NCBI RefSeq assembly: GCF_001598215.1
Contig: NZ_BCXJ01000008.1
Location: forward strand, 1 to 64,000
Direction: 5' to 3'
DNA length: 64,000 nt
From: Shouchella clausii
GTDB lineage: Bacteria; Bacillota; Bacilli; Bacillales; Bacillaceae_D
Part shown: one piece after another, positions 53,438-59,548 of the stretch
Layout: each line of letters opens with the position of its first letter
Numbering within the stretch: the first letter of the stretch is position 1
Made by a program: the position numbers and the translations under genes
Notes under the pieces: model-generated
The model's database searches: none
Seen by the model: only the letters and a program-made list of their open reading frames with translations
What the model was told of the DNA's origin: nothing

Positions 53438-55063
53438 CTATTGTTTTTTTCGTTTTGCCCAGGCGTATGAAAACGAGCCTTCATAACGAGTGACAGCCCC
53501 ATTTTCAAGCCAATAAGTGACAGGAAAAAGTTTGTTCAAAAAATAACGGTCATGTGATACCGTGATGATCGTGCCTGCAAACTCAGCCAATGCCTCTTCA
53601 AGCACTTCTTTTGAGTCTATATCGAGATGGTTTGTCGGTTCATCCAATAGGAGCACGTTATGTTTTTCAAAAATCAACTGGGCTAGCCGCAGCCGCATTT
53701 TTTCGCCTCCGCTTAAATCGGCGACACGCTTAAAAACATCTTGCCCATAAAACAAAAAGCGCGCCAACTGGCCTCGGGCTTCGCCATCTGTTAAAAGCGC
53801 ACTGGCACGGAATGCTTCGAGCACCGTCTGCTTTGGATCAAGTTCTGTGCCATGCTGTGACAAATAGCCTAATGAAACACTAGCCCCTATTTTGCATTGT
53901 CCTGTATCAGGTTCGATCTCCCCTAAAATTAACTTTAATAGCGTCGACTTCCCCTCTCCATTAGCGCCAACAAGGGCGACTCGTTCTTGATGGCGCACAG
54001 CTAAGTCAACTTGACCGAGCACTTGCCGTTCGCCAAATGTTTTCGAAACTGATGTTAGTTCAACTACATCTTCACCACTGCGCCCTTGCTGCTCAAAAGA
54101 CAGTTCTACTTTCTTCGTTTGCGGCGGCTTTTTTAGCTCTTCCATTCGCGCTAATGCTTTTTCCATGCTCTTAGCCTGACGGTGCATCCCTGCATTAGGC
54201 GGGTTAGCGCGGTTCGCCCATTCTTTCAAGCGCTTAATCGCTTCCCGCATCTTTTTGATCTTTTTCTGTTGATCCGCGTATTGCTGGAATTCTCTCATGA
54301 GGCGTTCTTCCCGCTCTATTAAATAACCACTGTAATTGGCTGCATAGTGATGCAACACACCGTTCTCCATTTCCCATATTTCCGTTACAGCAGCATCAAG
54401 GAAAGCACGGTCATGAGAAATAATGAGCACTGCTCCTGCATAATGGCGCACCCAGTCAGCAAGCCAATCAAACGCGTACAGATCAAGATGGTTAGTTGGT
54501 TCATCTAGAATGAGTAATTCAGGCTTTTGCAACAATAAACAGGCTAGGCCGACTTTCGTCCGTTCGCCACCGCTAAGAGCCCCCCAACGTTTCTCAAGCA
54601 ATCCCGTAATGCCAAGCCCTGCGGCAATGCGGCGAATATTGGCCTCATATTCAAAGCCACCAACATCAGCAAACTGCTGCTGCAAGCTGCCGTATTCCTC
54701 TAAGACACGTTCTAGCTTGGCTGGTTGCTGCTCGATTGCGAGCACTTCTTCCAATCGCGTCATATGTTCTTTCACTTTTTTTATATCGCTAAATACCGTT
54801 TCTAGTATCGTGTAGACACACTTGTCTGGCGAATAGGTAGGTGCTTGGGCTAACATGCCTTTCGTCAGTCCTTTTCGCCAGCCGATCTCGCCACTTGCAG
54901 GGCGTTCTACTCCGGCAAGAATCCGGGCCAGCGTTGTCTTCCCTTCGCCATTCCGCCCGACGAGGCCAATGCGGGCACCGCTTTTAATTTCCATTGACAG
55001 GTTCGCAAACACTTGTGTAGCTCCATATGATTGGCTGACTTGATTGGCATAACAAAGAATCAC
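53438..55063 (-). CDS. ABC-F ATPase, likely antibiotic-resistance ribosome protection type
   Basis: Soluble twin-ATPase that acts on ribosomes. The 541-residue protein has no membrane helix. First domain: Walker A GRNGEGKT (36-43), LSGGE (162-166), LDEPTNHLD (185-193); linker of about 85 residues rich in Lys/Glu (about 245-330); second domain: Walker A GANGEGKS (365-372), LSGGEK (449-454), LDEPTNHLD (472-480). GTG 55063 follows AGGAGG. Size and the leader-peptide/attenuator upstream fit VmlR/Vga-type members rather than housekeeping EttA-like ones. Which drugs it protects against cannot be read. Confidence 0.9.
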   Translation of the reverse strand: MILCYANQVSQSYGATQVFANLSMEIKSGARIGLVGRNGEGKTTLARILAGVERPASGEIGWRKGLTKGMLAQAPTYSPDKCVYTILETVFSDIKKVKEHMTRLEEVLAIEQQPAKLERVLEEYGSLQQQFADVGGFEYEANIRRIAAGLGITGLLEKRWGALSGGERTKVGLACLLLQKPELLILDEPTNHLDLYAFDWLADWVRHYAGAVLIISHDRAFLDAAVTEIWEMENGVLHHYAANYSGYLIEREERLMREFQQYADQQKKIKKMREAIKRLKEWANRANPPNAGMHRQAKSMEKALARMEELKKPPQTKKVELSFEQQGRSGEDVVELTSVSKTFGERQVLGQVDLAVRHQERVALVGANGEGKSTLLKLILGEIEPDTGQCKIGASVSLGYLSQHGTELDPKQTVLEAFRASALLTDGEARGQLARFLFYGQDVFKRVADLSGGEKMRLRLAQLIFEKHNVLLLDEPTNHLDIDSKEVLEEALAEFAGTIITVSHDRYFLNKLFPVTYWLENGAVTRYEGSFSYAWAKRKKQ

Positions 55064-55086
55064 GTTTCGTTCCTCCTATTTGATAG

Positions 55087-55172
55087 TAGGAAGAGACTTG
55101 GGTACACCAAAAAGACGGCAGAGAAATTCTCCGCCGCCTCAATCCGTATGCGAGTAGAAATGTCTCTTCCTA
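55087..55172 (-). promoter_or_regulatory. attenuator upstream of ABC-F gene
   Basis: On the minus strand an 11-bp stem with two G-U pairs (55114-55124 with 55128-55138), a 3-nt loop and five T (55109-55113) forms an intrinsic terminator before the ABC-F start. It is enclosed by a perfect 11-bp inverted repeat TAGGAAGAGAC (55087-55097 with 55162-55172). The upstream arm begins 10 bp after the leader ORF stop, so a stalled ribosome could change the folding. Confidence 0.75.
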
Positions 55173-55182
55173 ATGGTTTTTC

Positions 55183-55302
55183 CTATGCAGTTGCGTAAAA
55201 AAGGACAGACTGGTCCAATTTTGCAACAACAGCGGAAAAAATAGCCTGACAAATCCACAAATAGGCGCGAAACTTTGCCTGGCTGCCATTAAAAAGATCC
55301 AT
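55183..55302 (-). CDS. leader peptide for the ABC-F gene
   Basis: A 39-residue ORF starting MDLFNGSQAKFRAYLW and ending DQSVLFYATA, with an excellent GAAGGAGGTGA ribosome site before ATG 55302. It is followed by the attenuator and then the ABC-F gene. Antibiotic-induced ABC-F, erm and similar genes often use such peptides: drug-stalled ribosomes on the leader prevent termination. The sequence is not itself recognised. An upstream CATTAC/GTAATG hairpin (55323-55341) and TTTACA/TACGCT elements may be part of the promoter. Confidence 0.75.
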   Translation of the reverse strand: MDLFNGSQAKFRAYLWICQAIFSAVVAKLDQSVLFYATA

Positions 55303-55427: not shown

Positions 55428-56432
55428 TTAAGGAGAAATAACGCCAACTCCGGCGTTCGCCCGCACCACATCCTTGACTTGGTTTACAGGCGTTGCTTGA
55501 TAGCTGTATGGCGGATTATAAGTCGTTGTCGAGACAGTTGGCTGCTCGCCAGTCGATTGAACATAGCGGTTATTGACCAAATGCCAATACCCGATTTCCT
55601 TGCTGTCTCGGCTCACAATTGGATTGTTTGCCCTTTCAAAATAGTTCTCCTCGATTCGTACTTGAGCGCCCATCCGAGAATTGATCCCTGTCGCTTTAAT
55701 ATCTGCGTAGTAATTGCTGAAAATATGGGCTTCGCCAAAACGAACAGAAGGCACACGGGAATTCAAGTTTTCAAAGTAATTATTGTGGAATGTGATTTTT
55801 CGTCCGTATGAATCGCTGTCAGACGAACCCATCAGCATTGACTTCCAGCTGTCATGTACATAGTTCCATGAGAAAGTGATGTAATCAGCATCGCGTTTCA
55901 CATCAAACAATCCATCATAATAGTCCTTATGCACATCAAGGCTATTATATAATTCGTTATGGTCAACCCAAATGTTTTTGGACGGGCCTTCAATGCTAAT
56001 TGCATCTTTATCGCCTGTATTCACATGATGGATTTTTAAATTGCGGATAATCACGTTATTGGCCCGCCATACTTTAATGCCAATTCCATTAAGTTCCCCA
56101 TTTGTTCCCACCCCTAACAAAGACACATCATTGACATCTTTAATGTCAATCTTGCTTGCAGATGTGTTTGCAGGCGTGATCGTTCCGTCTATATAAATGG
56201 TTAAAGGTGTGTTTGCCTTTTTATTTTTTAGCGCGGCTATCAATTGATCACCAGTGGAAACAGTTACAACCTCTCCTCCAGCACCCCCTGTTGTCCCACC
56301 ATTAAGAGTGGCAAACCCTTGCATTGAAAAATTAACATTGGCTGCTTCAGCCCCTTCTTGCCCATACGCTGGTACGGAAAAAGCACCAAACGCCAGCAAA
56401 AACGCAACCATTAACGACCACAACTTTCTCAA
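55428..56432 (-). CDS. secreted pectate lyase, polysaccharide lyase family 1
   Basis: Extracellular beta-helix enzyme that cleaves polygalacturonate by elimination with calcium. The 334-residue protein has a signal peptide (basic RKLW, hydrophobic [18 protein letters not shown] near residue 24), then PL1 signatures: [57 protein letters not shown] and the catalytic-arginine segment [20 protein letters not shown] 56432 follows AGGGGATGAG. No neighbours of pectin breakdown are seen. Alkaliphilic Bacilli are known for such enzymes. Confidence 0.92.

Positions 56433-57299: not shown

Positions 57300-59548
<2,249 letters not shown>

Follow-up and report, generated by a model that had tools for sequence, protein, structure and literature searches.

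Leader-controlled ABC-F genes are a known kind, exemplified in the literature passages available to us by vmlR (PMC9226507), cplR (PMC10201436) and Rli53 (PMC8079631), and likewise by msrD. In Listeria, RliI is presented in the passages of PMC8079631 as a putative conditional terminator of lmo2760 detected by term-seq, with credit to Dar et al. 2016. Here, we report on the leader of an ABC-F gene located on the minus strand of a 64,000-nucleotide stretch of Shouchella clausii DNA (NCBI RefSeq assembly GCF_001598215.1, contig NZ_BCXJ01000008.1, positions 1 to 64,000; hereafter the window), which an earlier note, made from the letters alone, had described as a leader peptide plus terminator/anti-terminator. 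We propose that this locus is probably a ribosome-sensing attenuator of the rliI kind. As far as our searches go, the RNA shared by the whole family, the core of its leader peptide and a hairpin/U-tract module that it contains appear undescribed, since the literature searched yielded no description of any of the three.

The ABC-F leader and its relationship to rliI

The best Rfam match of the region is RF01487 (rliI), which is aligned over its full length with 30.8 bits (E 2.3e-6). The window does not reach the Rfam gathering cut-off of 45, and it is therefore a distant relative of rliI, not a member by the Rfam rule. In Listeria monocytogenes NCTC7974 (locus L371), rliI (282.6 bits) ends at position 1135, 65 nt before an ABC-F gene that starts at 1201 and codes for a protein 50.7% identical to the window's. 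Hence, in both the window and Listeria the RNA lies directly 5' of related ABC-F genes, and rliI codes for MFLLNARTSIAKFLYIVRAIFSVIAVTLAKSAQKTV, a leader peptide of the same kind. The neighbours of L371 (guaB and a glycoside hydrolase gene) fit those of the rliI/lmo2760 locus. Searching with RF01487 gave matches in 25 of 150 genomes, 20 of the 25 being upstream of the ABC-F; above its cut-off, RF01487 matched none of the 398 genomes sampled, the Listeria leader coming from the plasmid collection. In the passages available on rliI and lmo2760, no leader peptide is mentioned for rliI, and no relatives beyond Listeria are.

Read on the minus strand, the window's locus comprises the leader open reading frame (ORF), arm A (10 nt after the ORF), the terminator, arm C, the Shine-Dalgarno sequence (SD) and the ABC-F gene. 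The earlier note had listed the ORF, arms, terminator and ABC-F gene in this very order, with coordinates that agree with ours within 2 nt, and the ribosome site that it regarded as strong is indeed an AAGGAGG. It had not mentioned the pairing of arm A with the leader start (55313-55286), that of arm C with the SD of the ABC-F gene, or the hairpin at 55216-55197 within the ORF. The features are as follows:

55361-55333, minus strand: candidate promoter, read by eye (TTTACA at 55361-55356, 17-nt spacer, weak -10 TACGCT at 55338-55333)
55319-55313, minus strand: leader SD, AAGGAGG, read directly
55302-55183, minus strand: leader ORF of 39 codons with an ATG start (MDLFNGSQAKFRAYLWICQAIFSAVVAKLDQSVLFYATA), the peptide core of which is kept in relatives
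55313-55286, minus strand: 5' strand of the long-range helix H1, which starts with the final G of the leader SD and extends through codon 6 (fold, covariation)
55284-55243, minus strand: hairpin P2, codons 7-20, containing YLWICQA (fold, swap test)
55240-55177, minus strand: hairpin P3 (fold, swap test)
55216-55197, minus strand: inner hairpin of P3 and U6 (GGAC-CAGUCU-GUCC) within the ORF, a recurring module and candidate RNA polymerase pause site
55176-55150, minus strand: 3' strand of H1, containing arm A (fold, covariation)
55172-55162, minus strand: arm A, TAGGAAGAGAC, predicted by folding to pair with the leader start region or arm C
55140-55109, minus strand: intrinsic terminator (hairpin 55140-55112 with 13 pairs, U run 55113-55109)
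55097-55087, minus strand: arm C, GTCTCTTCCTA, predicted by folding to pair with arm A or the ABC-F SD
55077-55072, minus strand: ABC-F SD, AGGAGG, modelled as paired with arm C if the leader start is unoccupied
55063-53438, minus strand: ABC-F gene (541 amino acids, GTG start)

The 281-nt region folds at -109.6 kcal/mol, as compared to -71.3 +/- 5.1 kcal/mol for 200 shuffled versions (z -7.56), none of which folds as well. The TTTACA of the candidate promoter is retained in several close relatives; its absence from the promoter-scan output makes it a weak candidate.

A protein search of 40 related genomes, including the window's own (G000, the window's locus being L002), yielded 25 full-length loci (L002-L026) with 47-100% identity. 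The leader ORF occurs in 24 of the 24 loci that can be read far enough upstream (L011 ends 150 nt upstream, and the partial matches in G005, G020 and G037 were left unread), i.e., at 47% identity or more. Such conservation in related genomes had been set beforehand as a check on the earlier proposal. No leader was recognised in L027-L031, from five further genomes where the best matches have 41-43% identity. The 45 loci considered hereafter correspond to the 24 readable loci of the L002-L026 set, 17 loci from the rliI search and five named loci, after removal of L015, a near copy of L014. These five come from the 80 loci of a contig scan that yielded mostly unrelated ABC-F genes; a sixth served in the model search only. 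Adding 20 of the 30 fetched covariance-model hits gives 65 leaders.

The consensus of the leader peptide is F-L-Y-I-C-R-A-I-F-H. A motif of the form xA[IKLVN][FIVTS] is found in 61 of the 65 leaders, with its alanine at codon 20 in 39 of them and at codons 17-23 in all 61, it being understood that the 20 added leaders were admitted only with such a motif and that most of the 45 were chosen by a looser form of it. In a sample of 47 non-redundant leader segments, the in-frame synonymous fraction amounts to 0.242, versus 0.087 and 0.064 for the other frames, and none of 300 column shuffles attained the in-frame value. One family includes two genera whose ORF stops a few codons past RAIFH (25 codons in L241 and 26 in L243). 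Thus, the locus possesses an SD-bearing leader ORF that is conserved as a peptide, as in a ribosome-mediated attenuator. The earlier note did not recognise the peptide, and the passages available on leader-controlled resistance genes hold no description of the FLYICRAIF core. It thus represents a novel peptide among conserved leaders, and the drug that would induce it is open to testing.

Side observations can be added on peptides and neighbours. A second type of leader peptide (like VFGTVQAWFVVETSSMTHDF) stands 5' of the ABC-F in several genomes, and also, in L280 and L311, 5' of an unassigned gene coding for a 265-amino-acid methyltransferase-like protein with no NCBIfam match at 1e-40; the loci with this second type are L280, L311, L281, L309, L316-L322, L324, L326-L328 and L331. 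Upstream of the switch, the window carries pectate lyase-like and metG-like genes (55428-56432 and 57300-59453, by eye), and in L013 the end of a metG-like gene apparently lies directly 5' of the leader.

RNA structure and the predicted arm switch

The leader is predicted to fold as a three-way junction comprising H1 (leader SD and start with the stretch that follows the ORF), P2 (the codons before the RA motif with the motif itself) and P3 (the second half). With pair counts fixed at a minimum of 10, 5 and 6, respectively, 41 leader segments folded singly display H1 in 41 cases, P2 in 41 and P3 in 40 (L022 lacks P3). Strand-swap tests on 34 non-redundant of 44 loci (L059 was left out) indicated that the cognate H1 strands pair better than swapped ones (-25.6 versus -17.0 kcal/mol, better than 93% of the swaps, p = 6e-11), as do those of the terminator (-14.8 versus -6.1 kcal/mol, p = 6e-11). 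Anchored windows were used for P2, its first windows being badly placed (p = 0.34), and the anchored test on 32 loci supported both P3 (p = 2e-10) and P2 (p = 0.0004), with p > 0.6 for two negative controls. In 13 aligned leaders, 78.4% of the cells pair (73.4 +/- 0.8 after shuffling) and covariation amounts to 0.236 (0.162 +/- 0.013), both values also exceeding those of slid versions. A terminator-like hairpin lies between leader and ABC-F in all 45 loci. At the level of sequence and covariation, these data establish the leader ORF, its peptide core, H1, P3, the terminator and the recurrence of the module.

A covariance model built from the 13-leader subset, which contains no sequence from the window's family, recovered the window (48.8 bits, E 3.9e-10) together with 11 other supplied family loci, and missed L059. 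Of 398 Bacilli genomes, 125 contain a match to this model with E <= 0.01. All of the 30 top-scoring matches that were read precede the ABC-F (four or more of these also belong to the 45 loci), as do 15 of 20 weaker ones, i.e., 45 of the 50 matches read; the other weaker matches precede an ABC-F remnant at a contig end (one), an MFS gene (two) or another ABC-F (one), or are spurious (one). As to the two matches that precede MFS genes, the MFS gene of L273 codes for a FexA-like protein (709 bits, under the cut-off of 900), with a decayed ABC-F apparently lying between leader and MFS gene, and in L274 a second SD-sequestering hairpin is seen by eye right before the MFS gene.

Knowing that arms A and C are nested around the terminator, we consider that they suit a role in translation attenuation, acting on the ribosome site of the ABC-F gene, and not in antitermination. 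Equilibrium folding of the window with masked ribosome positions illustrates how this control might operate. When the leader start is free, arm A is held by the leader (0.82), C pairs with the SD (0.71) and the SD is unpaired with a probability of 0.06. With a ribosome at codon 1, these values become 0.96 for A:C, 0.02 for C:SD and 0.42 for the unpaired SD, the latter being 0.29 or 0.34 with codons 1-10 or 1-20 occupied. The terminator probability is 0.96-0.97 in every modelled state, which places the terminator outside the equilibrium switch. Folding with and without a ribosome, as the earlier note had suggested, thus changes the predicted partners of arms A and C and leaves the terminator unaffected. 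Most terminators of the 45 loci are likewise nearly unchanged by ribosomes, the exceptions being L010 (0.98 to 0.71) and L043 (0.97 to 0.80).

The C:SD pairing is predicted in 12 of the 12 loci of the window's family (5.9-10.2 expected pairs), where A x C covariation is weak (n = 6, p = 0.03). In the Listeria model, in which the arms also flank the terminator, A:C rises from 0 to 11.4 pairs and C:SD falls from 5.5 to 0.5; in a staphylococcal plasmid model C:SD falls from 9.7 to 3.9. Fold prediction gives mutually exclusive, ribosome-switched structures for the window and for Listeria, but in only 6 of the 12 family loci. On the plasmid side, pEpi56 of S. epidermidis (L372) carries an ABC-F relative with 49% identity, the leader of which keeps the AGUCUG hairpin and A/C-like arms, which are merely 17 nt apart and have no terminator between them.

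We propose the following scheme. The transcript would begin just 5' of the leader, and its first fold would be the H1/P2/P3 junction, through which the leader ORF runs. As long as the leader start carries no ribosome, H1 would hold arm A and many transcripts would stop at the terminator; in those that read through while the leader start is free, arm C would mask the ABC-F ribosome site. Ribosomes over the first ~10 leader codons, either an initiating ribosome blocked by a drug or several queued up behind one that is slowed at the conserved FLYICRAIF codons, would block H1, and the freed arm A could then pair with C around the terminator, pulling C away from the ribosome site of the ABC-F gene. 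RNA polymerase would pause at the P3 hairpin with its U tract, giving a ribosome time to load before H1 closes, and the ABC-F product would then protect ribosomes. We infer the drug induction, the pause, the stalling at RAIF and the function of the protein. We conclude that the arms are real and that their most likely role is translation attenuation, the terminator acting as an additional brake; the switch between A:C and C:SD is a fold prediction, for which a single family displays weak covariation.

The support for this scheme consists of sequence comparison, covariation and fold prediction, and several results weigh against it. Once the three anchored codons are removed, the synonymous fraction is 0.202 versus 0.112, with 2 of 300 shuffles as high. 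A MAFFT/RNAalifold consensus fold of 33 aligned leaders returned 0 pairs, indicating that aligning the leaders is not trivial, and the evidence for the structure comes from single folds, from swap tests and from the 13-sequence subset that also served to derive it. A ribosome at codon 20 alone leaves H1 closed and changes nothing, and a stall at the conserved codons would therefore need a queue. At equilibrium, A:C replaces C:SD in just 6 of the 12 family loci (in L006, partly); SD exposure clearly increases in 3 of the 12 and decreases in L003, L004 and L007, and in a separate run it rises by at least 0.09 in 5 of the 12. In Listeria, masking the start takes SD exposure from 0.46 to 0.39, whereas a queue takes it to 0.65. 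Outside the family, A x C covariation is absent (p = 0.21, 28 loci), and that of C x SD is weak (p = 0.049 in 34 loci; 0.078 in the family).

A recurrent hairpin/U-tract module

The P3 hairpin has a GUNUGYCY-type motif in 65 of the 65 leaders, lying in frame 1 in 48 of them, in frame 2 in 16 and in frame 0 in one. Being spread over all three leader frames, this motif is kept as RNA and not as peptide. The corresponding module, GGGRnnnGUMUGYCCnUUUUU (pattern GGGRNNNGTMTGYCCNTTTTT), has 127 matches in 104 of 398 Bacilli genomes, as compared to two for the reversed and five for the loop-scrambled pattern. In the window, the hairpin (GGAC...GUCC) is a variant not covered by GGGRNNNGTMTGYCCNTTTTT, and the one GGGRNNNGTMTGYCCNTTTTT match in G000 precedes an Erm-type gene (NF000499, 272 bits, cut-off 212) and ranks second among the model hits of this genome (E 2.2, not significant alone). 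This module lies at 685421-685441 of contig 1 (L294, L367), in the leader MYSIRLRFLVLNK of the Erm-type gene.

We read 88 distinct module loci out of the 127 matches, several of the rest being among the model hits read, and 69 of the 88 precede genes of ribosome-drug resistance types. The downstream genes are the present ABC-F in 40 cases (tblastn, 42.8% identity or more), another ABC-F in 12 (family search identified 10 of them, and BLAST alone L361 and L362), Erm in six and Cfr in four, as well as RlmA-type (three), Mef-type (three) and Mph-type (one) genes, which fall below curated cut-offs. Three of the remaining loci are leaders with flavin mononucleotide (FMN) or glycine riboswitches, and 16 are other or unassigned. 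In the riboswitch leaders, two FMN and one glycine (L293, L297, L308), the module lies ~20-120 nt past the aptamer. A leader of the RLR type occurs in 19 of the 88 loci, and several folds pair the module letters with the leader itself. In L310 (206-413, minus strand), the leader of a Cfr-type gene contains RF02452 (ncr1575, a Bacillus small RNA in Rfam; 139.4 bits).

As to its possible role, 36 of the 65 leaders have a TTNTTT no more than 8 nt from the hairpin, versus 3% of windows, and the relative position of hairpin and T tract matches the NusG pause geometry given in the passages of PMC12288461. Pauses are reported for the B. subtilis ribD leader (NusG-dependent; PMC12288461) and for the tlrB leader (PMC6851288). 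By analogy, the P3 module might act as a pause signal, with a pause end expected near 55192. Two points count against a simple pause signal, namely the loop, which is fixed although the passages of PMC12288461 make no such demand, and the lack of TTNTTT in 29 of the 65 leaders. A bolder view, to which we give somewhat less than even odds, is that the module is an interchangeable part of Bacilli attenuators whose loop is read by sequence (by RNA polymerase, NusG or another factor). Its range would span many unrelated resistance genes, including several ABC-F groups, Erm, Cfr, RlmA, Mef and Mph types, a FexA-like pump and a few riboswitches, and one RNA module would thereby be common to the switches of many resistance genes. 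Since the TTNTTT motif is described as necessary but not sufficient for pausing (PMC12288461, passages available), a module read by RNA polymerase or NusG would help to explain which TTNTTT sites truly pause. A pairing of the loop with a downstream CANAC, considered by eye, was not kept.

Alternative readings and comparison with known systems

The ABC-F protein of the window passes the NCBIfam model NF000355 for ribosomal-protection-like ABC-F proteins (469 bits, cut-off 380), which, together with the conserved leader, supports the earlier view of a leader-ORF attenuator before a gene of this type. It falls under every cut-off of the named resistance families Vga, Msr, Lsa, Sal, CplR and OptrA. 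We take the gene, from its sequence, as a resistance-type ABC-F of undefined drug class, distinct from VmlR itself; this gene would presumably provide inducible antibiotic resistance. The protein might alternatively be a general translation factor, the leader sensing any translation stress and not a drug class. A single-sequence search of solved relatives places EttA first (299 bits; VmlR, 266), a profile of 24 relatives has VmlR2 (389) and EttA (384) on top, with Uup also among the closest, and in the profile alignment VmlR2 has the longer loop between its ATPase domains. We consider a general factor unlikely because the EttA model, unlike NF000355, is not passed (408 bits, cut-off 599), relatives reside on staphylococcal plasmids, and the leader hairpin is common to leaders of Erm, Cfr, Mef-type and Mph-type genes.

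The other alternatives concern the RNA. A true antiterminator, in which a stalled ribosome frees arm A to break the terminator, would agree with the terminator-like hairpins found throughout the 45 loci, with the two good tandem terminators seen in 17 of 33 loci outside the window's family, and with the antiterminator of the vmlR leader (PMC9226507, passages available). It is made quite improbable by the terminator that persists with or without ribosomes, here and in most of the 45 loci, and by the lack of covariation between arm A and either terminator arm in 34 loci (p = 0.21 and 0.71). As neither equilibrium folds nor swap tests gave a structure that excludes the terminator, arm A was rejected as an antiterminator, and this part of the earlier note's label is not supported. 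Second tandem terminators can be seen for instance in L020, L038 and L050, several with a recurring GCCATGGG or similar stem. It is also conceivable that the short terminated transcript acts chiefly in trans, as described for rliI; in the passages available, RliI is reported to bind the lmo1035-lmo1036 mRNA (PMC8079631), and Rli21/RliI to bind Rli51 (PMC11394854). With 45 of the 50 model matches read directly preceding the ABC-F, and an ORF under coding constraint within the RNA, we regard such a chief role as very improbable, a trans role being possible as a by-product of the short transcript. Lastly, the module could serve not as a pause signal but as a strand in long-range pairing with the SD and the start codon of the leader. 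This reading has something in its favour, as the GGGA..AGUCUGUCCUUUUUUAAUAAUCUUC strand of RLR-type leaders is predicted to pair with the leader SD, start and RLR codons. It appears rather doubtful for the ABC-F class, where the same letters form a local hairpin and occur in all three frames, and for the module copies after FMN and glycine aptamers, where an ORF scan found no leader; the pause reported for ribD also speaks against it. We retain, as the more probable reading, an attenuator in which the arms would control translation of the ABC-F gene.

Among known systems, the Erm(D/K)-type RLR leaders (such as MTHSMRLRFPTLNQ, which we take to be ErmDL) have the same hairpin/U-tract letters, which in their case lie past the leader ORF and pair with it over a long range. 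As proposed for the present leader, that of B. subtilis vmlR has a translated upstream ORF in a stem, a terminator, and SD-sequestering and pause hairpins (PMC9226507); in the passages available, its ORF has three codons (MIN) and it uses an antiterminator, whereas the ORF here has 39 codons with a conserved core, and no antiterminator was found. The B. subtilis tlrB (yxjB) leader similarly has a leader peptide, a terminator and an SD-sequestering hairpin, together with an RNA polymerase pause that gives time for leader translation, but its peptide is a 9-amino-acid RYR peptide and its gene codes for an rRNA methyltransferase (PMC6851288, passages available). In C. difficile, cplR combines translation and transcription attenuation on an ABC-F gene, with an upstream ORF of three codons and a terminator stem that itself hides the SD (PMC10201436, passages available). 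The present leader and rliI are both three-way-junction RNAs with a terminator, a leader ORF (with FLYIVRAIF at codons 13-21 in Listeria), A and C arms that flank the terminator, and a related ABC-F gene downstream. They differ in the sequences of the leader peptide and arms, and rliI is listed in Rfam as a small RNA. This orphan "small RNA" would thereby become one end of an attenuator family with matches in 125 of 398 Bacilli genomes.

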